Assembly: GCF_000807275.1 (NCBI RefSeq)
Contig: NZ_CP009056.1
Coordinates: 1,241,192 to 1,305,191 of the forward strand
Direction: 5' to 3'
Source: Frischella perrara
Lineage (GTDB): Bacteria; Pseudomonadota; Gammaproteobacteria; Enterobacterales; Orbaceae
DNA: 64,000 nt
The notes under the pieces are model-generated. The model was not told the DNA's origin. It did not search any database and was given only the letters and a program-made list of their open reading frames with translations. Position 1 is the first letter of the stretch; each line of letters begins with the position of its first letter. The translations under genes and the position numbers were made by a program. Shown here piece after piece: positions 12,522 to 42,216 of the stretch.

Positions 12522-12565
12522 TTAAATTATCTCAAAAAACACCTTAAATCACTATTTTTTTCACA

Positions 12566-12595: not shown

Positions 12596-12828
12596 TCACC
12601 CTAGGATAAAAAATGAGTTGATGTATTTTTAACCTTAATCAAAATATCCATTCTATTAATGATTTTTTCTGAAAAACTCGTTATAGTTTTCTTCGATTTT
12701 TTATAAAAATCCTATTAATAATTTTGTATAAATTTTAAAAATACATTGATAGTTAATATCCCTAAAATAACATTTAAAAAGTATAAGTAAGTTTTTGTTG
12801 TTAATATTAATATAATATAAGGAAAATT

Positions 12829-13876: not shown

Positions 13877-13920
13877 TTAAATTATTTCAAAAAACACCTT
13901 AAATCACTATTTTTTTTCAC

Positions 13921-13945
13921 AACAAGCACTCAATGAGTGCTTGTT
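13921..13945 (+). terminator. Terminator after the third Sel1 gene
   Basis: AACAAGCACTCA-ATGAGTGCTTGTT stem with the loop in the middle, followed by CTGTTTTCC. Confidence 0.7.
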
Positions 13946-14180
13946 CTGTTTTCCTCCAGGATAAAAAATGAGTTGATGTATTTTTAACCTTAATCAAAAT
14001 ATCCATTCTATTAATGATTTTTTCTGAAAAACTCGTTATAGTTTCTTTGGATTTTTTATAAAAATCCTATTAATAATTCTATATAAATTTTATAAATACA
14101 TTGATAGTTAACTCCTAAAATAACATTTAAAAAGTATAAGTAAGTTTTCGTTGTTATATAAATATAATATAAGGAAGATT

Positions 14181-15641: not shown

Positions 15642-15682
15642 TTAAATTATTTCAAAAAACACGTTAAATCACTATTTTTCAC

Positions 15683-15707
15683 AAAAAGCACTCAACGAGT
15701 GCTTTTT
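15683..15707 (+). terminator. Terminator after the fourth Sel1 gene
   Basis: AAAAAGCACTCA-ACGAGTGCTTTTT; the loop-side base pair differs from the other copies (CAACGAG rather than CAATGAG). A further Sel1 leader begins after it and is cut at about 15832 by the IS. Confidence 0.75.
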
Positions 15708-15832
15708 CTGTTTTTCCCCTAGGATAAAGAATGAGTTGATGCATTTTTAATTTAGATAAAATTAGCCATTCTATTAATGATTTTTTTAAAAAAACTAGTT
15801 ATAGTTTTCTTTGATTTTTATAAAAATCCTTG

Positions 15833-16314
15833 GAATGAATACTTTTTTCTCAAGGCGCGTTTTGCACTGATAATAAAAGTAATGCCTTGATACACCTAAA
15901 CATCGACCCAACCAACTCAATAAATGGCGATGTCGATTTGATTGTATTACTGCGATTTTCGTGCCATTATCAGTGTGGCTTGCTTTAGGATATCGTTTTC
16001 CATCAATAACCGTTTATTTTCTTTGCGCAGGGCAAGTAACTCATTATCTTCAGTACTTAGATTATCTTTAGTTTTGAATGAACCCGTTGTGGAGTATTGT
16101 TTTATCCATCTATCTAATGCTGATGGCGTTAACTCATACTGTAAAACTAATTCACTGCGGGTTTTACCTTGTTGATATAGCATTACCATCTACTGTTTAA
16201 AATCATCTGTATAGGTTCGTCTTTCTGGTCGTTTTATTTTCATCATATTTTTCTTTTTTAGAGTAGTTTATCTTATCCCTTAAAAAAGTTGTACGAATTA
16301 GTGTAGCCTATCCA
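15833..16314 (-). mobile_element. Truncated IS3-family element (IS150-like), copy B
   Basis: The right end carries the terminal inverted repeat (GTGTAGCCTATCCA at 16301-16314) and the leader before orfA. On the minus strand come orfA and then only the first 40-odd residues of orfB (VIQSNRHRHLLSWLGRCLGVSRHYFYY), after which the element is cut inside the leader of a fifth Sel1 gene. It has the same orientation as copy A, and together the two bound the array. Confidence 0.8.
15947..16246 (-). pseudogene. IS3-family transposase OrfA with internal stop
   Basis: On the minus strand an ATG at 16246 or 16243 begins KIKRPERRTYTDDFKQ, then a TAG at 16192-16190, then MVMLYQQGKTRSELVLQYELTPSALDRWIKQY and a leucine-zipper stretch (NELLALRKENKRLLMENDILKQA). 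This is the helix-turn-helix and zipper protein that binds the IS ends. The stop replaces a residue inside the conserved FKQ-MVxLYQ motif. Translation could restart at 16189, but the element is also missing most of orfB. Confidence 0.85.
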
Positions 16315-16619: not shown

Positions 16620-17870
16620 ATGGGTAAACTTGTCGCAGTGGTAGGCGATCGAACAACGAAAGGCGGATATATACTTACTGGATCAGGTCCTGCTACTTGT
16701 GGTGGCAGGAGTATAGCTTTGGTGGGTGATTTGGTTACTTGCCCAAAATGTGGAAGTAAAGGGCAAATTGTTGAGGGTGCTCCTAATCTTACATTTCATG
16801 GTAAACCGGCTGCTTATCATGGTTGCCGTGTAGCATGCCAATGTACTCCTATAGGAAGTAATCAAATTATAGCGGGTCTAAGCTGGATGTCCGTTGATGT
16901 TATCCTACCAAAACCATCAGAAAGCACAAGATATGTATCTAATCCTGAAACTCGTTCAAAAATCAGAATAGATGTAAAAAAGCTATTAGATTTGGCTAAA
17001 GAAGTTTGCGAAAAGCATTTATATTATATGGTGATTCAACAGGAATTTATGAGGGCTATAGAAATCTTTGCAAATAGTATAGTTGCACAGGTTGATAATG
17101 GCTCAATGAGTGATACGGAAGGCTCGGAAGAGATCCAAAAAGAGAAAAAAAGCCTCCTTTATCAATCATATCTCTGGGGTAAAAATGGTATTTCTGTTTT
17201 TGGTGGTATAGGTCAGATTGTGTCAGGGGTAGCATTGTGTGAGACGGGTCTCGGTTGTGTATTTGCAGCTCCTATAGTTGCTCACGGATTGAATGGCACA
17301 TATGAAGGCGGGGCGGGTATTTATAATGGAGTTATGAATCAAATTGACGGTGGTAATAGGAGTTTAGAAGTTGAAGGACCTTTAAGAAAGGGGTATCAAT
17401 CAGCCGTAGAAGCATTAGGGTTTGACAGTTCGGTCGGTTCTATAGTCTATGATGTATTTGATTTAGCAGTTTCAGTACAAGGTAAATTAAAGCTTGTGGC
17501 TAAATTAAACGAATTTGGAGATCCAAAATTTAAACTGTTTTGGTATGGAAGACAGGATCTAGAAAGGGCTTATAAACAAATGAGTATTAACCTACTTAAT
17601 TTAGAGATGTTGGGTGATACTTCATTGACCTTTGATATTATAAATCAGTTGAACAATGTTTTCTTTTATAACAAAACTACAGAACAGGTTATTATGACTG
17701 TTAAAGAGCCTGAAACAATTACTAATGTAGGGCAGATTGTTGATGACTGTCATCTAGTAATAACTGTAACGGGCACAGATGAAGATGTACCGGCTTATTA
17801 TCGCTGTAAGACAAGTGATAACACAGAATATAGAAAAGATCTAGAAGGCAATATAATAGGGATTGATTAG
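16620..17870 (+). CDS. PAAR-domain effector, intact copy 2
   Basis: 416 aa. An N-terminal PAAR domain (residues 1-95: GDRTTKGGYILTGSG, CPKCGSKGQIVEGAPNLTFHG) would sit on the tip of a type VI spike. A linker and helical region follow to about residue 180 (KIRIDVKKLLDLAKEV). A glycine-rich hydrophobic stretch follows around residues 195-235 (FGGIGQIVSGVALC, GLGCVFAAPIVAHG), then a C-terminal domain of about 180 residues. The hydrophobic core suggests a membrane-acting toxin, perhaps DUF4225-like, but I cannot assign it firmly. Two small membrane proteins follow at once, as expected for immunity genes. No other T6SS gene is in the window, so this is an orphan cargo module. SD GTGAGG precedes ATG. 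Confidence 0.82.
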   Translation: MGKLVAVVGDRTTKGGYILTGSGPATCGGRSIALVGDLVTCPKCGSKGQIVEGAPNLTFHGKPAAYHGCRVACQCTPIGSNQIIAGLSWMSVDVILPKPSESTRYVSNPETRSKIRIDVKKLLDLAKEVCEKHLYYMVIQQEFMRAIEIFANSIVAQVDNGSMSDTEGSEEIQKEKKSLLYQSYLWGKNGISVFGGIGQIVSGVALCETGLGCVFAAPIVAHGLNGTYEGGAGIYNGVMNQIDGGNRSLEVEGPLRKGYQSAVEALGFDSSVGSIVYDVFDLAVSVQGKLKLVAKLNEFGDPKFKLFWYGRQDLERAYKQMSINLLNLEMLGDTSLTFDIINQLNNVFFYNKTTEQVIMTVKEPETITNVGQIVDDCHLVITVTGTDEDVPAYYRCKTSDNTEYRKDLEGNIIGID

Positions 17871-24711: not shown

Positions 24712-25065
24712 ATGAGAGGAACTAAAGATATTCTAATGGCGTGGAAGAATACACGTGTTTTAAAGCGTATTGGAACAGAATATCCATCAAAATCAGCGGG
24801 TATTGAGGGAGCTTTAAGAGATTTTGACTATCGCCAATATTTGACAGAAGACGAGGCACAGATTGTTGATAATGCCGTGTTAGCGCTTAAGGCTGATAAC
24901 TTTGAGTATTGGACTGTACTGACTTCTTTTTATTTACGTGAAATATCATGTACTAAGCAGGCTAAAGTTTTAGGTAAACAGACAACTGAAATCACAAAGA
25001 TATTACTTGCAGCTGAATGTTTTATCAGAGGTCACATCATTGAACTATTTTCAAAAGCTGCATAA
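24712..25065 (+). CDS. Q-like late antiterminator
   Basis: 117 aa with SD AAAGGAGG. It has the size, charge and helical pattern of the antitermination Q family of DLP12-type prophages (ILMAWKNTRV, then YYLREISCTKQAKVLGKQTTEI and AAECFIRGHI). Immediately downstream is a promoter followed within 50 bases by a strong terminator, exactly the arrangement Q proteins act on. The last codons (SKAA) are repeated at 28128 with the same promoter-terminator, so the 3' end of the gene is part of a duplication. Confidence 0.75.
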   Translation: MRGTKDILMAWKNTRVLKRIGTEYPSKSAGIEGALRDFDYRQYLTEDEAQIVDNAVLALKADNFEYWTVLTSFYLREISCTKQAKVLGKQTTEITKILLAAECFIRGHIIELFSKAA

Positions 25066-25095
25066 TTATGGTTGGTTAAAAATAACTAAATATAC

Positions 25096-25124
25096 TAGAC
25101 TGTTTAAACGTTTAAATATATAAT
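25096..25124 (+). promoter_or_regulatory. pR'-like late promoter, copy 1
   Basis: -10 TATAAT at 25119-25124 and -35 TAGACT at 25096-25101 with 17 bases between them. The spacer holds the palindrome GTTTAAACGTTTAAA. The copy at 28186 has a better -35. Confidence 0.7.
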
Positions 25125-25173
25125 ATGTTAATAATGCGGTGTTGAGCGTACGAAATACCGAAAAAGTTCAAAT

Positions 25174-25199
25174 AAAGCCTCTCATGAGGCTTTTTTCTT
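25174..25199 (+). terminator. tR'-like terminator, copy 1
   Basis: AAAGCCTC pairs with GAGGCTTT around TCAT, followed by a T run. It lies about 50 bases after the promoter, so late transcription needs antitermination. Confidence 0.8.
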
Positions 25200-25682
25200 T
25201 TCTTTAAAGAATTTTATCGTTTCTATTACAAGCTTGACTTTTGACCATATTCAAATCTATGGCAGTTTGTTTGATTTTAGTAAACTGAGAAACTCGAACC
25301 TACTAACATCAAGAGAATTAAAACTTGGACCATCTTCTTTATCTCTTCATTTCTCTTCTGACTTACTCTTTGGTAGGTTTAGCACTACTGCATTAACATA
25401 TAAACAAAATTTCAATAATACTAAAACTCACTTTGTTAAAACTTAGAGAACCAATCCTGGATAAACTACTTTTTATTTTGGCTGTGAGTTTTGATTCAAT
25501 TATAAAAAAGTAATGTGGATTTCAGTTAAGGGCGATAGGTCAAATTACCCTTACTTGAAATTTACCAAGACATGTAACTAATACGGTCAATGTCAATTTG
25601 CCGTAGATTTTAAAGCCCGAAAATGTCAGCCGAGGGACGAGGTATATTTCTTAATGTTGAGTTATTCTCTCAACACCAAACC

Positions 25683-25921: not shown

Positions 25922-26029
25922 ATTGATAAAAGAATAACTTTGGGGACAATGTTAAGTTCTTTACTCAGAGTTGTTGAACGAACTTAGGCAATGCAATGCG
26001 AATAAAATTACTATTAAGGAGATAATTAA

Positions 26030-28060
26030 ATGAATTCATTACAAGAGTATGATAAAAAATCAAATATTATTTCAGTTAAAGAATTCGGAGCCGTAGGGGA
26101 TGGGTTACAGGATGACACTTTAGCTATTACTAAGGCAATTGATGAAACGTATAAGAGTGGTGGAATTTTACTATTCCCGAGCGGCACTTATATTATTTCA
26201 TCAGATATTGAATTAAAAAGACAGTTTATTTCCACAGGCGTTGTTTCTTTTAAGGCTCCTGACAATAAAGATCTTTCTCCTAGTGTGGTTTTTTATATTG
26301 GACGTAGAATGAATGTTTCAAATGTAACATTTTATAATCTGGTAGTGAAAATTGCGCCAAAAGATAATGAACAAATCTATACTCCGGTTGAGTTAAACGG
26401 TGTGAATTTTTTACATTCGAGCCTTCAAATTGGTCAATCGCGTACGATAACAAGTGGATATTCTATTCGTTGTTGTAAATTTACTTCGATTAAGAGCCGA
26501 GCATTCAATGGATTAACTGTTCTAAATGCTAATCACGTATTAATCGACAATTGTGAATTTCAAGAGTTCCTAACAGGGATCTATATTGAACCAACAATGT
26601 CATTTGCTGCTACTGAAATTCGTATCCAAAATACCCGTATAACAAATTGTGTCGTTTCTGGTATATCTTTAATTGGTACGAATACAGCAAGACTATCTAA
26701 AATAATTTTAGATAATTTGGTTATTACAGGTTCATTGCGTGATAGGGATATGTTAAAGCATGGCGGGATTAGAGCATACTTTTGTAATGGTCTTATGATT
26801 AATAATATTACAGCCAGTACAATAACAGACACTATAAAATTAGAGGCCTGTACTGATGTAAAAGTTCATAACTCGAATTTAACTTCTAACCAAAGAGCGA
26901 GTAATATTAGGGCAACGGGATGTGTTAATGTTGATTTATTCAATTGTGTATTTGATCGTGGTATTGAAGCAGGTTACGCCGTTATTATTGGTGATGCTAA
27001 TTTCAATGCACAAACAAAAGCAAATACTTATCCAAGTAAATTCTGGCGAATACATGATTGTAGATTTCATTGTATAGCAGTAGGCGTAAAAATTGAATCC
27101 ACTGATAGTATTTCTGTTTTTAATAATAAATTTTACACAGATATTGCAAAAACAAATACAGGATTATTATGGTTTAGTAAGGAAGTAACAAATGGCCAAT
27201 ACTATAACAATGAATTCTATGCCCCTGGAGAAATAAAAACCATTAGAAATGATTCTTCTGCTAACGTAACAAATACTTATAATGAGCAAAAATTAAATAT
27301 AATTAAGCCGTCAAGAAATGATTATATTTCAGAACCAATTATAAAAGAGCGTGATTCAGATCTTAATGATGCAACTTCATACCTTATTGAGTTTCGAGTC
27401 AATGATTACCGAAATATACGACAAGCAGCTGATAACTATGATTTTAAAACACTATCAGACTGGATGAAATCTATTAATAATGCAACCTTAGCATGGAATA
27501 GCAGTGCTTGGCATGTTCCAAGTAAAAAACTTGGTGATATCGTCGTAAATGGGACTGTATATGATACTTATGGCACAGAAAATTTTTGGTGGGCACGTAG
27601 CATGCTTGTTATTGATAGATACAATAGATTAACATGTCGCGATTTTTCAACACCTAGTTATAGTTCCAATAACCCATTAATGATTGCTTCAGCTAGTATT
27701 GCTGAAAATGCATGGCAAACAGCAACATTCCAATCTCCACTTGTTGTAGATGGTGAGGTATATGATCCGCTTCCATATGGATTGGTAACTCATTATGGTT
27801 GGTTTAAAAATTTATCCGCTAGAATGTGTTTAGGACAGAAAAATGATGGAAGTTATATATTGCTTGCGGTTGATGGTAAATCTGGATTTGCTGGTTGTAC
27901 AATGGATCAAATAGCTAGAAAAATGAAAGATCTTGGTTGCATTCATGCATTTAATCTTGATGGAGGTGGTAGCGCATCATTGTGGTACAAAGGAAAAATT
28001 ATAAATAATCCTAGTATAGGTGAAGGAGAAAGGAAAATACCAGCAATCATGTATATTTAA
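26030..28060 (+). CDS. Tailspike-like protein: beta-helix fused to phosphodiester glycosidase (NAGPA) domain
   Basis: 676 aa with a perfect SD (AAGGAG). Residues 13-60 open a pectate-lyase-like right-handed beta-helix (SVKEFGAVGDGLQDDTLAI, IDETYKSGGILLFPSGTYI) that continues to about residue 420 with short N-rich turns. From about residue 500 the protein matches the NAGPA phosphodiester glycosidase family: RSMLVIDRYNRLTCRD, LVTHYGWFKNLSARMCLGQ, and NLDGGGSASLWYKGK at residue 642. That family cleaves sugar phosphodiester bonds. The fusion suggests a phage or tailocin enzyme attacking a phosphodiester-linked surface glycan. It lies between two copies of the late promoter-terminator, so it entered as a cassette. 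No typical tail-attachment domain is obvious at its N-terminus. Confidence 0.8.
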   Translation: MNSLQEYDKKSNIISVKEFGAVGDGLQDDTLAITKAIDETYKSGGILLFPSGTYIISSDIELKRQFISTGVVSFKAPDNKDLSPSVVFYIGRRMNVSNVTFYNLVVKIAPKDNEQIYTPVELNGVNFLHSSLQIGQSRTITSGYSIRCCKFTSIKSRAFNGLTVLNANHVLIDNCEFQEFLTGIYIEPTMSFAATEIRIQNTRITNCVVSGISLIGTNTARLSKIILDNLVITGSLRDRDMLKHGGIRAYFCNGLMINNITASTITDTIKLEACTDVKVHNSNLTSNQRASNIRATGCVNVDLFNCVFDRGIEAGYAVIIGDANFNAQTKANTYPSKFWRIHDCRFHCIAVGVKIESTDSISVFNNKFYTDIAKTNTGLLWFSKEVTNGQYYNNEFYAPGEIKTIRNDSSANVTNTYNEQKLNIIKPSRNDYISEPIIKERDSDLNDATSYLIEFRVNDYRNIRQAADNYDFKTLSDWMKSINNATLAWNSSAWHVPSKKLGDIVVNGTVYDTYGTENFWWARSMLVIDRYNRLTCRDFSTPSYSSNNPLMIASASIAENAWQTATFQSPLVVDGEVYDPLPYGLVTHYGWFKNLSARMCLGQKNDGSYILLAVDGKSGFAGCTMDQIARKMKDLGCIHAFNLDGGGSASLWYKGKIINNPSIGEGERKIPAIMYI

Positions 28061-28185
28061 GCAAAATTGAGGAAAGATTATGAAAAAGGGCAAAAGAAAA
28101 AAATAGTTTGCCCAAGTGAATCCGACTTTAAAAGCTGCATAATTATGGTTGCTTAAAAATAATTTAATAAAAAAACATTAAATAC

Positions 28186-28214
28186 TTGACCGTTTAAACG
28201 TTTAAATATATAAT
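28186..28214 (+). promoter_or_regulatory. pR'-like late promoter, copy 2
   Basis: -35 TTGACC (28186-28191), 17-base spacer with GTTTAAACGTTTAAA, -10 TATAAT (28209-28214). It is nearly consensus and stands directly before the lysis and tail genes, so it is the likely driver of the late operon. Confidence 0.8.
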
Positions 28215-28263
28215 ATGTTAAAAATGCGGTTTTGAACGTAAAAAATACCGCGAAAATTTAAAT

Positions 28264-28289
28264 AAAGCCTCTCATGAGGCTTTTTTCTT
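28264..28289 (+). terminator. tR'-like terminator, copy 2
   Basis: Same hairpin AAAGCCTC-TCAT-GAGGCTTT plus T run as copy 1, about 45 bases after the expected start of transcription. Confidence 0.8.
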
Positions 28290-28566
28290 TTGTTTAAAGA
28301 GTTTTATCGTCTCTACTATAAACTTGACTTTTGACCCTATTCAAATCTATGGCAGTTTGTTTGATTTTAATAAATTGAGAAACTCAAACCTACTAACACC
28401 AAGAGAATTAAGATTTGGATCATCTTCTATTTTTAACTTCTTGCTTTGTTCCAGCTCTATGAGCAATTTGTCATCTTAAAAACTCACTTTGTTTCACTAT
28501 CCCTCAGTATTGCTTTGAGACATGATTAAAATAAACAAAAATGTTATTTTTTTTTAAAAGATCATT

Positions 28567-28655
28567 GGATGGTTTGCTGAGCAGGTTAATGTACTGGTCT
28601 TGAAAATTAGCAAGGGCTAGCACTCTGCGTGAGTACGAATCTCACACATCCACCA
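28567..28655 (+). tRNA. tRNA-Ser(UGA)-like gene, probably degenerate
   Basis: Long-variable-arm form: GGATGGT, D-arm TTGCTGAGCAGG, anticodon stem CTGGT/ATTAG with loop CTTGAAA (anticodon TGA), T-arm GTGAG-TACGAAT-CTCAC, ending A plus CCA. The 3' acceptor strand reads ACATCC where ACCATCC would match the 5' strand, so one base is missing, and two anticodon-stem pairs are G-U. Function is doubtful. Confidence 0.55.
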
Positions 28656-28662
28656 CAATTAT

Positions 28663-28739
28663 ATGAGCTTAGTTTAACGGTATTAAAACGATGGTCTCCA
28701 AAACCATTGATAAGGGTTCAATTCCTTTAGCTCATGCCA
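28663..28739 (+). tRNA. Phage-borne tRNA-Trp(CCA)
   Basis: All four stems pair: acceptor ATGAGCT/AGCTCAT, D-stem GTTT/AAAC, anticodon stem ATGGT/ACCAT with loop CTCCAAA (anticodon CCA), T-stem AAGGG/CCTTT with loop TTCAATT, then G and CCA. It starts with an unusual A1-U72 pair. It sits seven bases after the tRNA-Ser-like gene inside the late transcript. Confidence 0.75.
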
Positions 28740-28798: not shown

Positions 28799-28831
28799 AC
28801 TACTATTAACCGCCTCACAATGGAGGCCTTT

Positions 28832-29155
28832 ATGAAGAAAAAGAAAATGCCTATAAAAGACCCAAACAACATAAATTGGACGGTTGTTATATATTTATTT
28901 TTTATAACATTACTAGGTTCCCTAGCTAGTTATTGCTATCACATTATGAATGGTGATACGTTCCGCATTGGTATGCTATTGGCACAAATATTAGTATCAA
29001 CATTTGCAGGCGCATTAGTTGTGCTAGGCGCCAGTTATTTCAATCTGGATTTTGAGCTAGCAGGTGGTATAGCTGGGTTGGCCGGTTGGTCAGGCGCAAC
29101 ATTGATAAAAGCGTTAGAAGAACGACTAATTAAGAAAGCCAGTGGAAAGGATTAG
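28832..29155 (+). CDS. Phage holin
   Basis: 107 aa from ATG 28832; GGAGG lies five bases upstream, which rules against the in-frame ATG at 28820. There are two clear membrane segments (VVIYLFFITLLGSLASYCYHI and ILVSTFAGALVVLGASYF) plus a third weak glycine-rich one (GGIAGLAGWSGATL) and a charged tail (EERLIKKASGKD). Size, topology and position directly before the lysozyme identify it as the holin that sets lysis time by opening the inner membrane. Confidence 0.82.
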   Translation: MKKKKMPIKDPNNINWTVVIYLFFITLLGSLASYCYHIMNGDTFRIGMLLAQILVSTFAGALVVLGASYFNLDFELAGGIAGLAGWSGATLIKALEERLIKKASGKD

Positions 29156-29158
29156 GAC

Positions 29159-29590
29159 ATGATCATTAGTAAGAATGGTTTAGACTTAATTAAACACTTC
29201 GAATCATTGCAACTAAAAGCCTATAAATGTTCAGCCAATGTATGGACGATTGGCTATGGTCATACGAAGAACGTCAAAGAAGGCGACCGTATATGTGAAG
29301 ATCAAGCTAATTGTTTTTTGATGCAAGATTTATATTCGGTTGAACGGGCAATTATTCGTTTGGTTAAGGTGAAAATTAATCAAAATCAATTTGATGCGTT
29401 ATGTTCATTGATATTTAACATTGGTATTTCAGCATTTAACAAATCTACATTATTAGCCAAGCTTAATACAAGTGATTTCGTTGGAGCATCTAATGAGTTT
29501 AAACGTTGGAACAAAGCAAACGGAATGGTTTTGTGTGGTCTAATTCGTCGTAGACAAGCAGAAGAAGATTTGTTCAATGCTAAGCTCTAA
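29159..29590 (+). CDS. Endolysin, GH24 lysozyme
   Basis: 143 aa. The family signature E-8-(D/C)-5-T is present as Glu15, Cys24 and Thr30 (HFESLQLKAYKCSANVWTIGYGHT), so this is the Cys variant of the catalytic triad. Downstream blocks QFDALCSLIFNIG and RRRQAEEDLF are standard. It hydrolyses the peptidoglycan glycan strand. There is no signal-anchor sequence at the N-terminus, so export should depend on the holin. It follows the holin by three bases and overlaps the Rz gene. Confidence 0.9.
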   Translation: MIISKNGLDLIKHFESLQLKAYKCSANVWTIGYGHTKNVKEGDRICEDQANCFLMQDLYSVERAIIRLVKVKINQNQFDALCSLIFNIGISAFNKSTLLAKLNTSDFVGASNEFKRWNKANGMVLCGLIRRRQAEEDLFNAKL

Positions 29591-29933
29591 TAAATTCTTG
29601 ATGATAAGTGCCATTATTGGCGTTTTATTAATGTGTCTTGTTTATAACCTATGGCAAGACAATAGAGTGGCCCATCAAAAAATCAATGAGTTGTCCGCAA
29701 AGTTACTACAGTTAGAAAATAACGCAATCAAGCAAAACAAAATCATAACAGAGAATGAAAATGCAACGCGTGAATTAGAAAACACATCACAAGAACAGCA
29801 GGAAAAAATCAATGAATTACTTAAAAATAATGATTGTGCTGATCAGCCTGTGCCTGTTTCCATTTCTAACAGCCTGTACAACAGAGCGAAAAGTCTACGT
29901 CAATCAACCGATACCAGCAAACCTGCTAAGTGA
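29577..29933 (+). CDS. i-spanin (Rz-like)
   Basis: 118 aa starting inside the lysozyme gene (14-base overlap). An N-terminal membrane anchor (FLMISAIIGVLLMCLVYNLW) is followed by a long charged coiled coil in the periplasm (KINELSAKLLQLENNAIKQNKI). That is the layout of inner-membrane spanins, which join the outer-membrane spanin to fuse the two membranes in the last step of lysis. The Rz1 partner is nested in another frame. Confidence 0.82.
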   Translation: MLSSNKFLMISAIIGVLLMCLVYNLWQDNRVAHQKINELSAKLLQLENNAIKQNKIITENENATRELENTSQEQQEKINELLKNNDCADQPVPVSISNSLYNRAKSLRQSTDTSKPAK

Positions 29934-30060
29934 TTGCCTCCCCAATATACCGCCTAAAACAATGACCTTTGGTGATAGTGTTAGATATAACGAACATCTA
30001 TTAAATGTTATTGAGATATGTAACCAGGATAAAAAAGCGATTAGGTTAATTAATCAATAA
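29812..30060 (+). CDS. o-spanin (Rz1-like lipoprotein)
   Basis: 82 aa, embedded in the Rz gene in a different frame and running past its end. The signal sequence ends in the lipobox LTAC with Cys22 (MIVLISLCLFPFLTAC). The mature part has prolines near the start (NQPIPANLL, LPNIPPK), as in Rz1 proteins. It is anchored in the outer membrane and pairs with the i-spanin. Confidence 0.85.
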   Translation: MNYLKIMIVLISLCLFPFLTACTTERKVYVNQPIPANLLSDCLPNIPPKTMTFGDSVRYNEHLLNVIEICNQDKKAIRLINQ

Positions 30061-30547: not shown

Positions 30548-30871
30548 AAACGTGAATTTATATCACAGGTTCTAAGTGATGCGTTTTTCGCAAATAAAGT
30601 TAATGTTGACGGGTTAGGTGATATCACATGCATTATTCGACCGACCTGTAATGACGATTTGCAAATTCTGTCCGAAAGCGAAAGGTTTAATCCCACAGTT
30701 CGGCTATTTTCTTAAACTGCATTAACTAATGGGATGCTATTTCATTATCACGATATGAAAAACAAAATCATATCTAAATCAATATGGAGTGATTATGGCT
30801 ATTACGACTGTTTGGCAACTCGATATGGAGGAAGTCAGGCGCATGATAGCGGAGATTTTAACGTTACCTGA
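30545..30871 (+). pseudogene. Phage neck/tail-completion gene with internal stop
   Basis: Starts MKREFISQVLSDAFFANKVNVDG and runs to NPTVRLFS, then TAA at 30713-30715. The frame continues TALTNGMLFHYHDMKNKIISKSIWSDYGYYD, so only one codon is altered. It overlaps the next gene's start, as is usual in tail operons. A second broken gene at the head-tail joint, while everything downstream is open. Confidence 0.65.
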
Positions 30872-31289
30872 TGAGCGAGTATTTGATGCTAACAATATGC
30901 AGGATGTTTCGGAACTGGATTATTTTGTTACCGTTTTAAATTCACACCAGTTGGATATCGGTACTGAAATAAAGTTTAACGGTAAGGATGAGGAAGAAAT
31001 CATATCGACATTGAAAGAGGTCAACATCTCGATTAATGCCTACGGTAAAAATTCCTATCAGCTACTGTGTAAATTAACACAATCCATGCGATCAACGTCA
31101 GTTTGGCAACGATTAAAGCGTATGGGTATGGGTTATTTACGATGTTCAGAGATTCGAAGTCTGCCGACTGCTATTGATGGCGGTGAAGAACAACGTGCAG
31201 AGGTTGATCTTATTTTTTCAATTAATTCAATCATTAAAGCCAACGTTAAATGTGGCAAAACAGTAAATTTTAAATTAATACGAGGTTAA
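30795..31289 (+). CDS. Tail terminator/neck protein (LIC_12616-like)
   Basis: 164 aa from ATG 30795, preceded by GGAG; a GTG two codons upstream overlaps the SD. The sequence (TTVWQLDMEEVRRMIAEIL, then SINAYGKNSYQLLCKLTQSM) fits the neck/tail-terminator proteins placed before the DUF3383 sheath in this class of myophage. The family assignment is from memory and moderate. It would cap the tail tube after it reaches full length. It is intact, unlike the two genes upstream. Confidence 0.55.
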   Translation: MAITTVWQLDMEEVRRMIAEILTLPDERVFDANNMQDVSELDYFVTVLNSHQLDIGTEIKFNGKDEEEIISTLKEVNISINAYGKNSYQLLCKLTQSMRSTSVWQRLKRMGMGYLRCSEIRSLPTAIDGGEEQRAEVDLIFSINSIIKANVKCGKTVNFKLIRG

Positions 31290-31291
31290 CA

Positions 31292-32803
31292 ATGAGTTTA
31301 CCAATTAGTCAGGTTGTAGATGTAATTCTACAACAGTCCCCACAAGGCGCACAGAAACGCGATTTAAGCGTTGTGGCAATTTTTACTAATGAAATGTGCG
31401 ACGAGTATAACAACCCTGATTCACGTTATATCGTTGTGTCAGATGCTAATCAAGTTGCATCACTATTCGGTACTAATTCGGATGCATATAGAGCAGCATC
31501 AGCATTATTTTCAGCAAAACCTAAGCCTAAAACGGCGATCATTGCTAGATATGTTCAAGAAACAGTAACGATCCCCGCTACCTATTCTAAAATTAACGGA
31601 TCAGCTTTAGCGATAAGTTATATTCATTTTAAAACCATCACTGATGGCTATTTATCTTTTTATTATGGCTCAGACCAAATCGATATTAGTGGCTTAGATT
31701 TTTCTAAAGTATCGAATATGGATGATGTAACAAAGATCATTAATGCAAAATTAGAGGATCACCAAGTCAAATTTATCTTTGATTCGGTCGGTAGGCGTTT
31801 TATTTTATCGTCTAAAACAGAAGGTAAAGGATCTAATTTTGGTTATGTTTTTAATGCTGAATTAGGTGGTACTTACATCGGTCATTTAACTAACCTAGTT
31901 GACGGTAAATGTACGCTAATTAATGGTGAAGACGCGGCAAGTTATAACAAAGAAACGCCAGCCGAAGCACTGAGTAAATTACAAAATCAATACCAGAATT
32001 GGTACGGTGTTTATTTTGCAAATACGATTAATGACGCTGAATTAATCGAAGCACATGATTGGATCATTGCTCAAGGGGTCGAAAATGCGAAGGTTATGGC
32101 ATTTACTGAGACGCGACCTGCTAACATTGAATACGTTGATACGAATGTACTTAAAACACTTTCTATGCGCAACAGTGGTCGTTTAATGGTTCAATATAAC
32201 AATAAAGGTAATACACATGCTGCTGCGGAATTAATGGGTATTGCATTAACTACAGTTTGGAATGGAATCAATACTGCAAAAACAGTTAAATTTAAACAGC
32301 AAGTTAGCGTAACATCTGACGATAAAATCACCATAAATGAGGCTAACAAATGCCGCCGTTTAGGTATTAACTATTATACCGATTATGCAGGTGTCAATAT
32401 GTTGGCGGAAGGTGTCATGCTAGGTGGTACATTTATTGACGAAACAACCGGATTAGATGCATTTATTAATGCCGTCCAGATTCAAGCTTTCAATACGTTA
32501 CAAGGTCAGCCAACTAAAATTCCTCAAACCGACAGAGGTCAAGAAATTCTCATCAGTTCTATTAAAGTGATAGGTGAGCAGTTTATCGATAATGGCTTTT
32601 TAGGTTCAGGTAAATGGACATTAGGCGATTTGGGTGGCTTGTCTTATGGTGACCAAATCAATGGCTATTATTTTTATTCTGATTCATTTGATACGCAAGA
32701 TATAGCAGACCGTGAAGCACGCAAAATGATGCCAATCAATTGTGCATTAAAACTTGCTGGTGCAGGTCATAGCGTTGATATTATTGTCCAATTTAATCGA
32801 TAA
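31292..32803 (+). CDS. Contractile tail sheath protein (DUF3383 type)
   Basis: 503 aa. The start (MSLPISQVVDVILQQSPQGAQKRDLSVVAIF) and end (DREARKMMPINCALKLAGAGHSVDIIVQF) match the DUF3383 sheath-like family of Bcep781-type myophages. The middle includes the TETRPANIEYVDTNVLKTLS and GRLMVQYNN blocks. This is the protein that contracts to drive the tube through the target envelope, so the particle encoded here is of the contractile type. It is the largest intact structural gene after the tape measure and has an SD before ATG. Confidence 0.85.
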   Translation: MSLPISQVVDVILQQSPQGAQKRDLSVVAIFTNEMCDEYNNPDSRYIVVSDANQVASLFGTNSDAYRAASALFSAKPKPKTAIIARYVQETVTIPATYSKINGSALAISYIHFKTITDGYLSFYYGSDQIDISGLDFSKVSNMDDVTKIINAKLEDHQVKFIFDSVGRRFILSSKTEGKGSNFGYVFNAELGGTYIGHLTNLVDGKCTLINGEDAASYNKETPAEALSKLQNQYQNWYGVYFANTINDAELIEAHDWIIAQGVENAKVMAFTETRPANIEYVDTNVLKTLSMRNSGRLMVQYNNKGNTHAAAELMGIALTTVWNGINTAKTVKFKQQVSVTSDDKITINEANKCRRLGINYYTDYAGVNMLAEGVMLGGTFIDETTGLDAFINAVQIQAFNTLQGQPTKIPQTDRGQEILISSIKVIGEQFIDNGFLGSGKWTLGDLGGLSYGDQINGYYFYSDSFDTQDIADREARKMMPINCALKLAGAGHSVDIIVQFNR

Positions 32804-32812
32804 GGAGGTTAA

Positions 32813-33244
32813 ATGTCTAAATCATTTTCTTTAGAAGATGCAATCGTGACTATTGATGGTGTTGAAATAACAGGTTACGAGAATGCACAAGATTCAATCT
32901 CAATCGCTCCCGCTGGCGATGATGGTAGTATCACCCATGGTATTAATGGGCAAGGTGTTTTTGTCCACTCAAGTAATCGTGGTGCGACTGTTACGATTAA
33001 AACATTACAGCACAGTGAAATTAACGAAACACTCAATAGATTACGTGAGCAACAAATTAATAACCCGACTAATGCAACAGCAAAATTAATTACCTATAAA
33101 GATATGCGTAATGGCGATGAAATTTTATTATCGGGATGTTGGTTTTCCACACCGCCAACTATCAGTCGTGGAACGTCACACAATGGTATGACATGGACAT
33201 TTGTAGCAACTAAAGCAGAAATAAAAATTAAAGGTGGTTTATAA
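32813..33244 (+). CDS. Tail tube protein (DUF3277-like)
   Basis: 143 aa with SD AAGGAGG. The sequence SLEDAIVTIDGVEITGYENAQDSISIAPAGDDGSITHGINGQGVFVHSSNRGATVTI is typical of the DUF3277 tube proteins that follow DUF3383 sheaths. It polymerises into the inner tube surrounded by sheath. The stop codon overlaps the next start (ATAATG). Confidence 0.8.
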   Translation: MSKSFSLEDAIVTIDGVEITGYENAQDSISIAPAGDDGSITHGINGQGVFVHSSNRGATVTIKTLQHSEINETLNRLREQQINNPTNATAKLITYKDMRNGDEILLSGCWFSTPPTISRGTSHNGMTWTFVATKAEIKIKGGL

Positions 33245-33660
33245 TGCAAAACAAAGATTTTATAATTGATGATGTAACCTATACATTCAAACAAGCCGAT
33301 TTTTTCAAAGCCAACAAATATCTTAAAAAATTAACAGCCCTTTTAAAGGGCTGTTTTTCATTGGAAGGTAATCAAACAGGCTTTGATATTGGTCAGCTCG
33401 CATCCAATATTGGTAGTGAAGAATTTGTTGAGATTGAAAAGTTTGTTCTGGATTATGTATCCGCGGTTGATGAAAACGGTAAAACGATTTTATTTCAAAA
33501 TCCTAAAGAACAAGGTGAATTTTTTAATACACATCGAAACCATTATTATCAAATTATTATTGAAGGTCTGAAGTTCCATTTTTTGGGTTTTTTACCAAAT
33601 GGCATATTGTCCAATCTAAGTACGCTCAGCTTGGCGGAAATAACCAAGAAAGCGATATAG
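33244..33660 (+). CDS. Tail assembly chaperone, short (G-like) form
   Basis: 138 aa from the ATG that overlaps the tube stop. Helical and rather acidic (FFKANKYLKKLTALLKGC, VEIEKFVLDYVSAVDENGK). It stands between tube and tape measure, where phages encode a pair of tail assembly chaperones by ribosomal frameshifting. A slippery site lies near its 3' end and the -1 frame is open up to the tape measure start, so this is the non-frameshifted product. Confidence 0.7.
   Translation: MQNKDFIIDDVTYTFKQADFFKANKYLKKLTALLKGCFSLEGNQTGFDIGQLASNIGSEEFVEIEKFVLDYVSAVDENGKTILFQNPKEQGEFFNTHRNHYYQIIIEGLKFHFLGFLPNGILSNLSTLSLAEITKKAI
33588..33594 (+). promoter_or_regulatory. -1 programmed frameshift site T TTT TTA
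   Basis: In the zero frame the codons are GGT TTT TTA CCA, a canonical X-XXY-YYZ heptamer. A -1 slip gives FFTKWHIVQSKYAQLGG and stays open to 33803. Confidence 0.7.
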
Positions 33661-33803
33661 ATTGGTTTCTATGGGGCGTTGTCGTTAATAAATACGCAAC
33701 GCTTCACGAATTGAGGACTGTTTATTCGCTTGATGATGTCATTGATATGCATAACGTCATAGCAGAACTGAAATTAGCCGAAAAACAACAGAGTGAGGCA
33801 TAA
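33594..33803 (+). CDS. Tail assembly chaperone, T-like extension reached by -1 frameshift
   Basis: Open -1 frame without its own start: WHIVQSKYAQLGGNNQESDIDWFLWG, then NKYATLHELRTVYSLDDVIDMHNVIAELKLAEKQQSEA and TAA one base before the tape-measure ATG. About 70 residues are added to the chaperone when ribosomes slip at 33588-33594. In lambda the fused form recruits the tape measure. The good coding character of the extension argues against a simple pseudogene. Confidence 0.65.
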   Translation, partial: TKWHIVQSKYAQLGGNNQESDIDWFLWGVVVNKYATLHELRTVYSLDDVIDMHNVIAELKLAEKQQSEA

Positions 33804-33804
33804 T

Positions 33805-35610
33805 ATGATTTTAGAGGAAATTTTAATAAAAATAGGTGTTGATGCTTCTAAAGCCGCTGAAATTTCTGGTGTCATCAATAATTTAAAAACAGGCTTTTCA
33901 GAGTTGAATAATGTTGCCGTTACATATGGCAAAATGATGTGGAATGCATTTAACGGGGCAATAGAGAATGCGCAAATTCTTGCTTTACAAAAAAATGCAC
34001 TTTTTGACATCTCTGAAAAAGAGCTGCTTCAGGCAGAACAGTATAAAAGTGTAATGTGTAAGGTAGGGCTCGCGGTTGAAACTATAAAGACCAAAATTGC
34101 GCTTGGTCTTGCACCGGCTGTTACTGATTTAATTTTAGTCTTTAGTGATTGGCTCATTGCCAACAAAGAATTGATCGCGGATGGGATCGACATAATCGTT
34201 AAAGTGGTTGGTAATATTATTCAAGTTATAAAGCATTTTTGCGAATTCTTGGATTTGGTTATTACTAATACGATTGGTTGGAAAAATGCAATTATTGCCT
34301 TTATCGCTATATGGGCATTATTTAATAAGGCTTTTTTACTGAGTCCTGTGGGACTTGTGATTGGGGCGATTACGGTTTTACTGTTACTTATAGATGACTT
34401 AATGGTTTATCTGAAGGGCGGTAAAAGTCTTTTGGGCAGTTATTGGCAACCACTCATTGATGGCGCAAAAGCACTGTGGGAGCATATCAAATTAATTTTT
34501 CAATTTATAAAAGCTCTTTGGAGTGGTGATTCAGAAGCTATCAAATCAACATCGAAAAAACTCATTAGTTCTATTATACAAATATATGAAGGCTACATAA
34601 ATGGAATTAAAACCATACTATCAAATTTGTTAAAATACATTTTTGTTTTTTTCGGTATGTCAGAAAGTAAAGCCAGTAAAACAGTAGATAGAATAGGGAA
34701 AATATTTAGTTATCTATTTGATCTGATTATTTTTCCTTTCCGTGCTTTATACAAAGCAATTTGTTATATCATGGATATGCTTGGGCTTGATATCGGTGAT
34801 GTTATAAATGGTATTTATTTATCATTTATAAGACTTTGTGAGTCAATAATTGCACCTTTCAAAGCAGCGTGGGAATTGGTCAGTTCACTGTTTGATATTT
34901 GGGAGGATGACACCACAACGTTTATAGATAAAATTTGTCAAACATTTAAAGCTATCTTAACTTTCTTGTTGTTTCCTTTTGTACAACTTTGGCAGAATAT
35001 TAAAGGTCTTGGTAAAGCCATTTTAGAGCTATTTGAGCTGATCATCAATGGCTTAATTAATTGCATAGATTGGGTAATCGGTAAAATTATAGAGACATGT
35101 AAAGATATTTTTGCTTTCATTACATCTACTTTTACACAATTTTGGCAGTATATTAAAGACGGGTTTGAGTCTTTGGTGACGGATGTTAGCGAGATCTTTA
35201 CAGGTCTATATGAATCGTTAATTAATCCAGTTAACGATGGCATAGATTGGATAAAAAATAAGTTTTCCGAATTAATTGATTGGTTTAACAATATTTATTC
35301 CAATTTAAGTAAAAAGTTCACATCCAAATTCAAAAAATATTTTTCTTGGACAGGATTATTTGATGATGATAAGGACAAAGAACAGGTTAAAACTACTATA
35401 ATTGAGCACCCTAACTCGTTAAATACTAATAACGCAAACGCAGCAGCCATGAATCGAGTTTCATCAAAGGTGAATAATAATGCTGTGACAATTAATAACA
35501 CCATGCACGTTAGTACACCGCAAGAAGGGTTTGATAATTTGAATAATCTTGCCAAAAATGAGATTCAAAATGTCGCTGATAATACACAAACCGCACTCGG
35601 AGCAAATTAA
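33805..35610 (+). CDS. Tail tape measure protein
   Basis: 601 aa from ATG 33805. A long, mainly helical protein with hydrophobic stretches (GWKNAIIAFIAIWALFNKAFLLSPVGLVIGAITVLLLLIDDL) and repeated helical blocks containing FPFRALYKAI, APFKAAWELV and LFPFVQLWQNI. Length in this family sets tail length; 600 residues predicts a short to medium tail of very roughly 90 nm by the usual 0.15 nm per residue. It follows the chaperones and overlaps the next start (TAATG). Confidence 0.8.
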   Translation: MILEEILIKIGVDASKAAEISGVINNLKTGFSELNNVAVTYGKMMWNAFNGAIENAQILALQKNALFDISEKELLQAEQYKSVMCKVGLAVETIKTKIALGLAPAVTDLILVFSDWLIANKELIADGIDIIVKVVGNIIQVIKHFCEFLDLVITNTIGWKNAIIAFIAIWALFNKAFLLSPVGLVIGAITVLLLLIDDLMVYLKGGKSLLGSYWQPLIDGAKALWEHIKLIFQFIKALWSGDSEAIKSTSKKLISSIIQIYEGYINGIKTILSNLLKYIFVFFGMSESKASKTVDRIGKIFSYLFDLIIFPFRALYKAICYIMDMLGLDIGDVINGIYLSFIRLCESIIAPFKAAWELVSSLFDIWEDDTTTFIDKICQTFKAILTFLLFPFVQLWQNIKGLGKAILELFELIINGLINCIDWVIGKIIETCKDIFAFITSTFTQFWQYIKDGFESLVTDVSEIFTGLYESLINPVNDGIDWIKNKFSELIDWFNNIYSNLSKKFTSKFKKYFSWTGLFDDDKDKEQVKTTIIEHPNSLNTNNANAAAMNRVSSKVNNNAVTINNTMHVSTPQEGFDNLNNLAKNEIQNVADNTQTALGAN

Positions 35611-36545
35611 TGTATAAATCTATACTGAATGAATCATCCTTAAATTCTGGTTTAATCATTACCGATGATTTTACTTTTAATTTGGACATAAATACGGTAG
35701 AACAGCATACATCAAAGCTAAGATTGACAGAAAATCCGATAGAGAATGGGGCAAATATCGCAGATCATGCGGTGTTAGAGCCTAAAGAGGTGACCGTTAA
35801 TGGACTGGTTGTTAGTTATAATCCTAATAATAACATAGACAAAAGCGTGACGAGTTATGACATTAAAGACTATCCGTCACCCATACCGGTAAGATCTATC
35901 ACACCACAAGCTGAAAAAACGGTTAAGGGGTACTATACATCACTTAATCAGACTAAGGAAGAAAACTTAGTTCAGCCTGTTGCCGACTTTTTGCCGGATT
36001 ACCAATCACCTAAATTCCAAAAACTATCATCTGATAGGATCGCTGATGCTCATGAGAAATTATTAGCTATCCAGCGAAGCGGTAAACCAGTGACGCTACT
36101 AACCAATGCACGGCAATACAAAAATATGATTATTACGTCTATTGGTCTTACGCAAAAAGAAAGTACCGTCGGTGAATTTATCATAACATTTCGTGAGATA
36201 TTCATTGTTGAAACTCAAATCTTTAACGTTCTAAGGATCTCTAAACTTGAAAAGACTAATTCAGGTCACATTCAGCTCGAAAATAAGGGGAATTTCAGAA
36301 GTGTGTTTGCAAAAACGGCTGAAGGGGATTTCTCCTTAAACCCGATTTTTTATCCAAATCAGGGATCATATGATAACTATTGGATTTATGAGAGACTCAA
36401 CAGTAACAATGGTAACAGTGTTCAGAATAAACAGGTTAGATTTCCCCAGAATCAAAAGGATACAGGTAACCCGAGTAACAAGGGTAACAAGGGTAACAAG
36501 GGTAACAAGGGTAACAAGGGTAACAAACAGGTTAAATTTCCCTAA
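35610..36545 (+). CDS. Dit-like baseplate/tail protein with repeat-encoded C-terminus
   Basis: 311 aa. The core (DFTFNLDINTVEQHTSKLRLTENPIENGANIADHAVLEPKEVTVNG, then VTLLTNARQYKNMIITSIGLTQKES) matches the N-terminal domain of distal tail proteins placed after the tape measure in this phage group. The last 15 or so residues are GNKGNKGNK repeats from a 9-base tandem repeat. DNA on both sides of the repeat is itself an imperfect duplication (36430-36470 and 36527-36566), which seems to have created the present stop codon. The C-terminus may therefore be shorter or altered relative to the ancestor. Confidence 0.65.
   Translation: MYKSILNESSLNSGLIITDDFTFNLDINTVEQHTSKLRLTENPIENGANIADHAVLEPKEVTVNGLVVSYNPNNNIDKSVTSYDIKDYPSPIPVRSITPQAEKTVKGYYTSLNQTKEENLVQPVADFLPDYQSPKFQKLSSDRIADAHEKLLAIQRSGKPVTLLTNARQYKNMIITSIGLTQKESTVGEFIITFREIFIVETQIFNVLRISKLEKTNSGHIQLENKGNFRSVFAKTAEGDFSLNPIFYPNQGSYDNYWIYERLNSNNGNSVQNKQVRFPQNQKDTGNPSNKGNKGNKGNKGNKGNKQVKFP
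36465..36527 (+). repeat. Seven tandem 9-base repeats inside the Dit-like gene
   Basis: Units GGTAACCCG, AGTAACAAG, four GGTAACAAG and GGTAACAAA. Because the unit is nine bases, changes in number keep the reading frame and only lengthen or shorten the GNK tail. Confidence 0.9.
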
Positions 36546-36629
36546 AATAAACAGGATACAGTTAACCCTTATCCATCGATTTTGACGAAAGACTAGTAGT
36601 GTATCAAAGGATAGAAGGAACAAACAAAC

Positions 36630-36956
36630 ATGTATATCATACCTATAACATCAGATGATATTCTAGTGCAATCATTTTCTTTGTACGATATCAATTTGCG
36701 ATTAACACTGCGTTACAATTCTGTCTTGAGGGGGTATCAATTCGATTTATTTGATATAAATAAAAACCAGTATATTACGAGAAATAAAGGACTTGCTGTT
36801 GGTAGTCCTTCACTCATTGAGTTTAATTTGCCTTTTGTGCTAGTTCTTTATGATAAATCAGGTAAAGGTATTAACTCAATTTCGAAAGATGATTTTAATA
36901 ATCGTATGCAATTGCTAATCATGATAAAGGAGGAATACCGTGCGTCAATTTGGTAG
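36630..36956 (+). CDS. Baseplate plug-like protein
   Basis: 108 aa. A compact beta-rich protein (DILVQSFSLYDINLRLTLRYNSVLRGYQFDLFDI, then GSPSLIEFNLPFVLVLYD) that fits the phage baseplate plug family found between the Dit-like and hub genes of such myophages. SD AAGGAAC precedes it and it overlaps the next gene's start by 17 bases. The assignment rests on position and a moderate sequence impression. Confidence 0.55.
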   Translation: MYIIPITSDDILVQSFSLYDINLRLTLRYNSVLRGYQFDLFDINKNQYITRNKGLAVGSPSLIEFNLPFVLVLYDKSGKGINSISKDDFNNRMQLLIMIKEEYRASIW

Positions 36957-37764
36957 AATGTTGCAACTTAAAATTGGTAATCAAAATGAGAGCATTATTA
37001 TTGATCACCTGCGTGTCACATTCTCAATAAAAAAAACGTTATCCTCCAATCCCAATGCTGCAGAAATTAGTATTTATAATCTCAACGATTCAAATCGTAA
37101 TCTAATCGCGACTAAACAATATCATTTATTAGAGTTAAGCGTATGTTATAAGGATGATATGCTTAGGTTAATATTTTGCGGAGACATTATTAACGTAGAA
37201 AACAAATTAAATGATAAAGATATCATCACGGTTTTACGTTGTGGAGATGGATATAAGGCTTTTACTGAAAAAACGATCATTAAAACAGTGGCAAAAGGAC
37301 AAACTGATAACGACTTGTTGAATGAAGCGGCAAACAGTTTCGGTATACAAAAAGGCAGTGTCAATTTACCGAATGATAGAGTATTACCTCGAGGCAAAGT
37401 AATGATGTGTGATACCCGAGAAGTTATGCATGAAATAGCTATCAACCAAAATGCTGATTGGTTTATTCAAGACGGTCAACTTTTTATTATTCCTAAAAAT
37501 AAGGGACTGGCTAATAACCAGGGTTGGGTTATTTCTCGGACAACAGGCATGATAGGCATCCCACAAAAAAATAATGAGGAAGTAGAGGTGAAAACGCTAT
37601 GCAACCCTCATTATAAAGTTGGTTCAATTGTCCGTATTGAATCGAGAGTATCTGAATGCAATGGCGATTATAAAATTAAATCAATAGAGCATAATGGCGA
37701 TCTTTACGGTTCAAATTGGTATAGTAAATTGGTTTGTACGAGTGGAAAATTTGAAGAGATTTAA
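36940..37764 (+). CDS. Baseplate hub protein (gp27/gpD-like)
   Basis: 274 aa from GTG 36940, which has the strong SD AAGGAGG six bases before it. The sequence (LRVTFSIKKTLSSNPNAAEISIYNLNDSNRNLI, GDIINVENKLNDKDIITVLRCGDGYKAF, REVMHEIAINQNADWFIQDGQLFI) is typical of hub proteins that form the torus on which the central spike sits. The neighbours, plug before and spike after, agree. Confidence 0.72.
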   Translation: MRQFGRMLQLKIGNQNESIIIDHLRVTFSIKKTLSSNPNAAEISIYNLNDSNRNLIATKQYHLLELSVCYKDDMLRLIFCGDIINVENKLNDKDIITVLRCGDGYKAFTEKTIIKTVAKGQTDNDLLNEAANSFGIQKGSVNLPNDRVLPRGKVMMCDTREVMHEIAINQNADWFIQDGQLFIIPKNKGLANNQGWVISRTTGMIGIPQKNNEEVEVKTLCNPHYKVGSIVRIESRVSECNGDYKIKSIEHNGDLYGSNWYSKLVCTSGKFEEI

Positions 37765-37823
37765 TTATTTAAATTTCACGACAATACAACCCGTAAAAGA
37801 TTAATATAAATGTTTGAATTACG

Positions 37824-37846
37824 ACCCTCTTAATGAGGGTTTTTTA
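37824..37846 (+). terminator. Hairpin terminator inside the tail operon
   Basis: ACCCTC pairs with GAGGGT around TTAAT, followed by six T. It would reduce expression of downstream baseplate and fibre genes unless transcription is antiterminated from the late promoter. Confidence 0.75.
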
Positions 37847-37871
37847 TTATCTAATAAATCATAGGTAATTT

Positions 37872-38546
37872 ATGACAGTTTCATTATATACCGCAATAGA
37901 AAATCAAATTAAACGCGCACAATCAAATATCTATACTGCGTTACCGGCAAAAGTAATTAACTTTAATGGTCATACGGTTAGTTGCCAAATTATGATTAAC
38001 CGAATTATTGCAAATGGACAAGAAATCACGATCCCCCCTTTAGTGGATGTCCCCGCTCAGTTCCCACATGCTGGCGGATTTTGTATTACTGTACCAATAA
38101 AAGCTGGGGATGAGGGGTTGGTCGTTTTTTCAAGTCGCTGTATTGATGGTTGGTATATAAGCGGTCAACAATCAAAACCACTAGATAACAGAATTAATGA
38201 TCTAAGTGACGGCTTTTTTATTGTAGGTTGCAATAGCGTACCTAATAAAATCCCTGATTTTTATCATAATGGCGCATCAATGCAAACTGATGATGGCTCA
38301 ACTCATATTCGACTAACTAAGGGGACTATTTACATAAAAGGTAACATTATTCATGAGGGCAGCACGGAACAACTGGGCAATTATAACCAAGTTGGAAGTT
38401 ATAACCAAACTGGAGGAAATACAGTAAGCTCAGGTACGCTAAAAGCTGAAAATGTTATTACTAATAAAGGCGTGAGTTTAAATACACACGTTCACAATGG
38501 TGTACAGAAAGGAAACAACAATACAGGAGCGCCAAATGAAGGTTAG
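37872..38546 (+). CDS. Baseplate central spike protein (Gp138 N-terminal type)
   Basis: 224 aa. The N-terminal OB-fold region (VINFNGHTVSCQIMINRIIANGQEITIPPLVDVPAQFP, then GDEGLVVFSSRCIDGWY) matches the Gp138/gpV group of spikes. A beta-prism-like C-terminus follows (STEQLGNYNQVGSYNQTGGNTVSSGTL) and ends THVHNGVQKG, a histidine pattern seen in metal-binding spike tips. It trimerises beneath the hub and pierces the target membrane. Overlaps the next gene. Confidence 0.75.
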   Translation: MTVSLYTAIENQIKRAQSNIYTALPAKVINFNGHTVSCQIMINRIIANGQEITIPPLVDVPAQFPHAGGFCITVPIKAGDEGLVVFSSRCIDGWYISGQQSKPLDNRINDLSDGFFIVGCNSVPNKIPDFYHNGASMQTDDGSTHIRLTKGTIYIKGNIIHEGSTEQLGNYNQVGSYNQTGGNTVSSGTLKAENVITNKGVSLNTHVHNGVQKGNNNTGAPNEG

Positions 38547-38901
38547 ACAGCTTGATGACGATCATGACTGGATGTTTGGGCGAGGTTATGCTGATTATCT
38601 TAATTCATCTCAAGCCATAACGCAATGCATTAAAACAAAGTTACAAGCACTAAAAAGTGATTGGTTCATGAATCGTAATGATGGTATTGCCTGGTTTGAC
38701 TATCTCACCAAAAATCCGAATACGAAACAATTAGAAATTGATGTTAGGACAGAGATTTATAAGGTTGAAGGTGTTGTAAGTATTGATGAATTCGATATTT
38801 TACTCGATCCAGAAACTCGCCAATTTCAGATTCACATTACTTATACTGATAAATTCAATAATACTAATGGGGCATCATTCAATGTTACAAATAACAGATA
38901 A
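38536..38901 (+). CDS. Baseplate wedge protein (gp25/W-like)
   Basis: 121 aa from ATG 38536, which overlaps the spike stop. WMFGRGYADYLNSSQAITQCIKTKLQALKSDWFMNRNDGIAWFDYL and GVVSIDEFDILLDPETRQFQIHI are typical of the small wedge proteins related to T4 gp25, which form the inner baseplate and start sheath assembly. The gene overlaps baseplate protein J by 20 bases. Confidence 0.78.
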   Translation: MKVRQLDDDHDWMFGRGYADYLNSSQAITQCIKTKLQALKSDWFMNRNDGIAWFDYLTKNPNTKQLEIDVRTEIYKVEGVVSIDEFDILLDPETRQFQIHITYTDKFNNTNGASFNVTNNR

Positions 38902-42199: not shown

Positions 42200-42216
42200 G
42201 AGAAAGGAGTTTATAA

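Follow-up and report, generated by a model that had tools for sequence, protein, structure and literature searches.

The window, the whole 64,000-nt stretch of Frischella perrara DNA analysed here, encodes a 676-aa protein in which a tailspike-like beta-helix is followed by a predicted NAGPA/DUF2233 phosphodiester glycosidase domain. The protein lacks a virion attachment domain, its gene lies between two direct repeats in the gap between the antitermination gene Q and the holin gene, and the same cassette is present in other prophages. The fusion of the two domains is not unique; it is the reduced, anchorless form and its position that are unusual. The protein may be a late-expressed tailspike enzyme that is set free at lysis to degrade, as a diffusible depolymerase, glycans on neighbouring cells, a role to which we give about an even chance.

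Domain organization of the spike protein

The open reading frame is intact, begins with ATG and is preceded by AAGGAG. The protein and its two parts are placed as follows:

26030-28060, + strand: beta-helix and NAGPA protein, the main subject, 676 aa (Pfam, AlphaFold, Foldseek, VIA-align)
26066-27301, + strand: right-handed parallel beta-helix, tailspike-like, residues ~13-424 (PF12708 at 13-65; VIA-align)
27338-28057, + strand: NAGPA/DUF2233 domain, residues ~437-676, with the Pfam match at 496-676 (Pfam, conserved columns, fold)

Both ends score well above the curated Pfam cut-offs. Residues 13-65 match Pect-lyase_RHGA_epim (PF12708; E 3.1e-13, 50 bits, cut-off 27 bits) and residues 496-676 match NAGPA (PF09992; E 4.4e-25, 89.3 bits, cut-off 25 bits). 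In an alignment of 23 sequences R598, G602, D615, G616, N642 and D644-S648 of the NAGPA domain are invariant, and profile alignment places this motif on that of animal NAGPA enzymes, including 6PKI, 6PKU and 6U11. The AlphaFold monomer model, built on a 23-sequence alignment, has a mean pLDDT of 84.8 and falls below 50 only at residues 1-10 and in two loops; it consists of a long beta-helix up to about residue 424 and then an alpha/beta domain. When the model was compared with the PDB by Foldseek, NAGPA catalytic domains ranked first (TMt 0.65-0.69), with E 8e-11 for 6pky and TMt values of 0.69 for 6pku and 0.58 for 3ohg. The VIA-align list is taken up by the helix and so consists chiefly of matches to that part, which superposes on the Sf6 tailspike (Z 33, 2.6 A, 336 residues), on the phi92 colanidase gp150 (Z 30) and on alginate epimerases (Z 34). 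The NAGPA half was assigned from Foldseek, Pfam and the profile search.

The initial annotation had proposed, from the letters alone, a pectate-lyase-like spike fold followed by a NAGPA-type C-terminus, and had suggested structure prediction as a check. The helix match to the Sf6 tailspike bears out the former, the NAGPA enzymes at the head of the Foldseek matches, in place of any other fold, bear out the latter, and the model reproduces the two-part structure. By Pfam cut-off, modelled fold and conserved motif, the protein can be placed in the NAGPA/DUF2233 phosphodiester glycosidase family. Its NAGPA domain is predicted to hydrolyse sugar-1-phosphodiesters; for the substrate, a surface glycan with phosphodiester links is the natural guess. 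Adhesive-only or inactive tailspikes also exist.

Relatives of the fusion and known systems

The combination of a helix and a NAGPA domain occurs as a tailspike in Justusliebigvirus coliphages, in Erwinia phages, in a Rodentibacter Mu-like prophage and in three viral contigs (L112, L113 and L114). The spikes JLBYU50 gp134 (UGL62151) and PHB05 ATI15877, from phi92-like Justusliebigvirus phages of E. coli, resemble the window spike over their full length, with a beta-helix-like region and a C-terminal NAGPA domain; identity is 27% over the whole protein and reaches 40-42% in the NAGPA part. On the other hand, they have 857 aa and an N-terminal extension, in which Tail_spike_N was found for JLBYU50, and are encoded in large virulent phages among tail fibre and baseplate genes. 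The best relative outside the close copies is the 810-aa spike of the Rodentibacter prophage, with 40% identity over residues 12-676 of the 676-aa protein; it differs by an N-terminal tail-fibre domain and by its place directly after baseplate genes. The Erwinia phage spikes VL73 gp50 and MIF8 gp81 share the NAGPA C-terminus and align from about residue 126-146 on (24% identity), whereas their helix start could not be aligned by BLAST and MIF8 carries Tail_spike_N. The L112 and L113 spikes directly follow a tail protein (phrog_469), and that of L112 also matches the central tail fiber J. Tail_spike_N was found by Pfam in three of the relatives, namely JLBYU50, MIF8 and L113. As the spikes of JLBYU50, Rodentibacter, L112 and L113 lie among or directly after tail genes and three relatives carry Tail_spike_N, the fusion is an existing, apparently uncharacterised, type of tailspike. 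Beta-helix matches in other relatives were rejected as the same protein, since they cover only residues ~8-60 in ORFs of ~450 aa.

Outside tailspikes, the NAGPA uncovering enzyme and BACOVA_00430 (6PKI/6PKY, 3OHG) share the fold and the motif (RtaiG, DG, NLDGGGS) of the C-terminal domain, but are cellular and have no phage spike attached. NAGPA-like proteins are also encoded by phages and prophages of Gram-positive bacteria. One is YomE of SPbeta, with a match limited to the C-terminal part. NAGPA depolymerase-like proteins have been predicted in Curtobacterium prophages (PMC9862828); they too are phage-encoded but have an N-terminal helical domain. The phosphodiester-hydrolysing role of NAGPA is summarised in PMC12419801. 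Literature searches on the phosphodiester glycosidase family (NAGPA, DUF2233) and on tailspikes found no study of the spike-NAGPA fusion. The initial annotation, which made no search, knew of no described phage enzyme of this kind; the fusion is already present in sequenced phages, and in the record OK272470 it is annotated as 'putative phosphodiester glycosidase family protein'. The architecture is therefore uncharacterised rather than unknown.

The cassette between Q and the lysis genes

Upstream of the cassette lie genes for an S24-type repressor, O, P, RusA and Q; the lysis genes and a contractile tail cluster follow it:

24712-25065, + strand: antitermination protein Q (PF06530, E 9.5e-9; phrog_79)
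25050-25338, + strand: flanking direct repeat, upstream copy, with weak similarity on to ~25750
25096-25124, + strand: promoter-like TAGACT-17-TATAAT in the upstream repeat (consensus match only)
25174-25193, + strand: intrinsic terminator-like hairpin (tR'-like) in the upstream repeat
25922-26033, + strand: decayed 3' end of an Rz1 gene, its stop overlapping the start codon of the spike gene (ATGA); the G033 copy shows the same overlap
28127-28428, + strand: flanking direct repeat, downstream copy, with weak similarity on to ~28815
28186-28214, + strand: promoter-like TTGACC-17-TATAAT in the downstream repeat (consensus match)
28264-28283, + strand: intrinsic terminator-like hairpin in the downstream repeat
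28566-28739, + strand: tRNA-Ser(tga) and tRNA-Trp(cca), lying within the downstream repeat, between cassette and holin
28820-30060, + strand: lysis module with holin (from 28820), lysozyme, Rz-like and Rz1-like genes
30789-47853, + strand: contractile tail cluster with terminator-like, sheath, tube-like, tape measure and baseplate genes and three fibre-chaperone pairs

The cores of the flanking repeats are 88-91% identical and the copies lie 3.08-3.09 kb apart. They are two copies of the Q-holin intergenic region with the spike gene between them. Toward ~25750 the upstream copy seemingly holds decayed remains of the tRNA-Ser/tRNA-Trp pair. In each repeat a terminator-like hairpin lies 50 nt downstream of a promoter-like site whose last bases are TATAAT. 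Such promoter-like sites are not in excess in the cassette region (15 found vs 21 expected in shuffled sequence). In lambdoid phages, Q proteins antiterminate at a pR'-tR' arrangement; the paired sites of the repeats resemble it, and their use here may be Q-dependent. The Rz and Rz1-like genes of the lysis module were assigned by position, overlap and relatedness.

The close copies of the window spike are those of genome G033 (93% identity), of a prophage in a MAG of the bee-gut bacterium Gilliamella (90%) and of an IMG/VR prophage (89%). In G033 and in the Gilliamella prophage an open Rz1-like frame overlaps the spike start in the same manner as the decayed one, which ties the gene to the lysis operon. 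Equivalent repeat-flanked cassettes were found in two prophages. That of the Gilliamella prophage (9.6 kb) holds the same spike together with an S74 spike and a GDSL hydrolase; that of the IMG/VR prophage (6.85 kb) holds the same spike and an ORF that matches the GDSL hydrolase in length. This GDSL-type hydrolase has 596 aa (14278-16068 in the Gilliamella prophage), and the ORF of equal length is at 56901-58691 in the IMG/VR prophage. At the DNA level the cassette had no match in the phage collection searched. In the simplest history, a spike downstream of lysis genes lost its anchor and spread among prophages of the bacterial family, and recombination in the Q-lysis region brought it into the tail cluster.

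A further spike is encoded at 4801-7152 of the window. It has 783 aa, matches phrog_4636 (a tail spike family) and carries an endosialidase-like N-terminal stretch; in both G033 and the Gilliamella prophage the NAGPA spike is followed by a homologue (40%), which in the Gilliamella prophage has Peptidase_S74.

Loss of the attachment domain

Of the marks of a tailspike, the 676-aa protein has the beta-helix fold, and neither an attachment domain nor a location in a tail module was found. Only ~12 residues precede the helix, and Pfam detected no Tail_spike_N (PF18668), although relatives have this domain or other extensions at the N-terminus. The initial annotation was thus right that an obvious virion attachment domain is missing. 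Its statement that the gene lies away from the tail genes stands in part: the ORF is outside the tail block, in the Q-holin gap, and the first tail gene begins ~2.7 kb further downstream. With the attachment domain lost, the protein is probably not a normal part of the virion. This copy is best described as anchorless cargo in the lysis region of a tail cluster in which no head genes were identified.

All four close copies begin at the same residue, ~12 before the helix, and have no attachment domain. The reading frame is unbroken in all of them (4/4), and the start and ribosome-binding sequence are conserved. The dN/dS of the whole gene is 0.20-0.26 in the divergent pairs among the four copies, and pairwise values per domain are 0.17-0.28, with both domains alike. 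The anchorless spike gene is thus under purifying selection; the reduced form predates the split of the four copies and has been maintained by selection. A decaying, functionless tailspike remnant, to which the decayed upstream Rz1 and the missing anchor would point, is for the same reasons very unlikely: intact frames, similarly low dN/dS in both domains and conserved translation signals all argue against it.

The tail cluster downstream

No terminase, portal or capsid gene was identified among the scanned ORFs of 22-48 kb. Sheath, tube-like, baseplate, fibre and lysis genes are present, as for an R-type tailocin; no gene was matched by the name 'tube', and 32813-33244 matches a 'virion structural protein' family. 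Judged by its genes, the cluster looks tailocin-type. In G011, a genome of the same family, repressor, O, P, Q, lysis and tail genes follow one another in the same order (L120/L121); its tail cluster likewise appears headless, with no room for head genes between lysis and tail among ORFs of at least 70 aa. Sheath homologues occur in 13 of the 60 relatives searched. The cluster, in which no head genes were identified, probably represents a family of tailocins within this bacterial family. A literature search restricted to 'tailocin' with 'Gilliamella' found no paper on such a tail cluster. At 40646-47853 the three consecutive tail fibres have a common N-terminal part, differing C-terminal parts and a chaperone each.

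Possible role of the anchorless spike

As a diffusible depolymerase, the spike would be produced upon induction by Q-dependent late transcription, along with holin, lysozyme and tails. Lysis would then free it to act on the glycans of nearby cells. Its beta-helix would bind, and may cut, a surface polysaccharide, while the NAGPA domain would hydrolyse sugar-1-phosphodiester linkages. Once these glycans are cleared, the tail fibres would have access to the cells, as would virions in the case of the Gilliamella prophages.

The spike could still be structural, its trimer being held on the tail or baseplate by a separate adaptor or a non-covalent contact, with the anchor in another gene. The spike fold, the clear tailspike relatives and the tail cluster with three fibres just downstream are in keeping with this. 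However, the short segment before the helix is of low confidence in the model (residues 1-10), a fused N-terminal extension is seen in the full-length relatives from tail modules, and both G033 and the IMG/VR prophage have the same gene and yielded no homologue of this tail sheath; a structural spike is possible but rather unlikely. It is less probable still that the gene is a lysogenic-conversion (moron) gene that alters the producer's own surface glycan, for instance to block superinfection or to change colonisation. The Q-holin gap is a known place of accessory genes in lambdoid phages, and both this cargo position and the variation of the cassette between prophages would fit. Yet no hydrophobic leader is visible in the sequence, the first residues running straight into the helix, and a cytoplasmic spike could not reach surface glycans before lysis; the upstream terminator-like site also suggests low expression without Q.

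A more specific version of the diffusible depolymerase would be a two-part weapon: the tailocin-like cluster would have captured the anchorless spike, which would open the hexose-1-phosphate-linked capsules of neighbours so that the tails reach their receptors, both being freed by the same lysis event. Taken as a whole, this is a long shot. It is set beside the distribution of Stealth-type hexose-1-phosphate transferase genes. The producer lacks them, as do the Gilliamella MAG and G033; of 34 same-family relatives that belong to other genera than the producer, 6 carry them. The Rodentibacter carrier of the fusion has a Stealth gene; among 140 genomes of its family the fusion occurs in 1 and Stealth in 25, a single event from which no association can be read. 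A Stealth capsule link common to the carriers was rejected, as the Rodentibacter carrier has such a gene and the other three genomes do not. The TagF-like polymerase PF04464 is also absent from the window genome.

Many Gram-negative capsules contain sugar-1-phosphodiester linkages, as do teichoic-acid-like polymers. If the predicted activity is true, NAGPA tailspikes would add these linkages to the chemistry of phage depolymerases. An anchorless spike under selection beside lysis genes is a testable case of a phage-derived depolymerase that may serve as a public good or as a weapon in a gut community.

Other genes of the window

A weak glycosyltransferase family 9 (heptosyltransferase-like) gene lies at 47922-49007, on the opposite strand and just past the last fibre chaperone. 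At 16620-17870 a protein is encoded that has a PAAR motif and ends in a DUF4225 domain; it may be a type VI secretion cargo. Four large Sel1-repeat genes, with up to 23 repeats, stand in a row at 8478-15641; similar genes are found in the IMG/VR prophage, at one end of its record.
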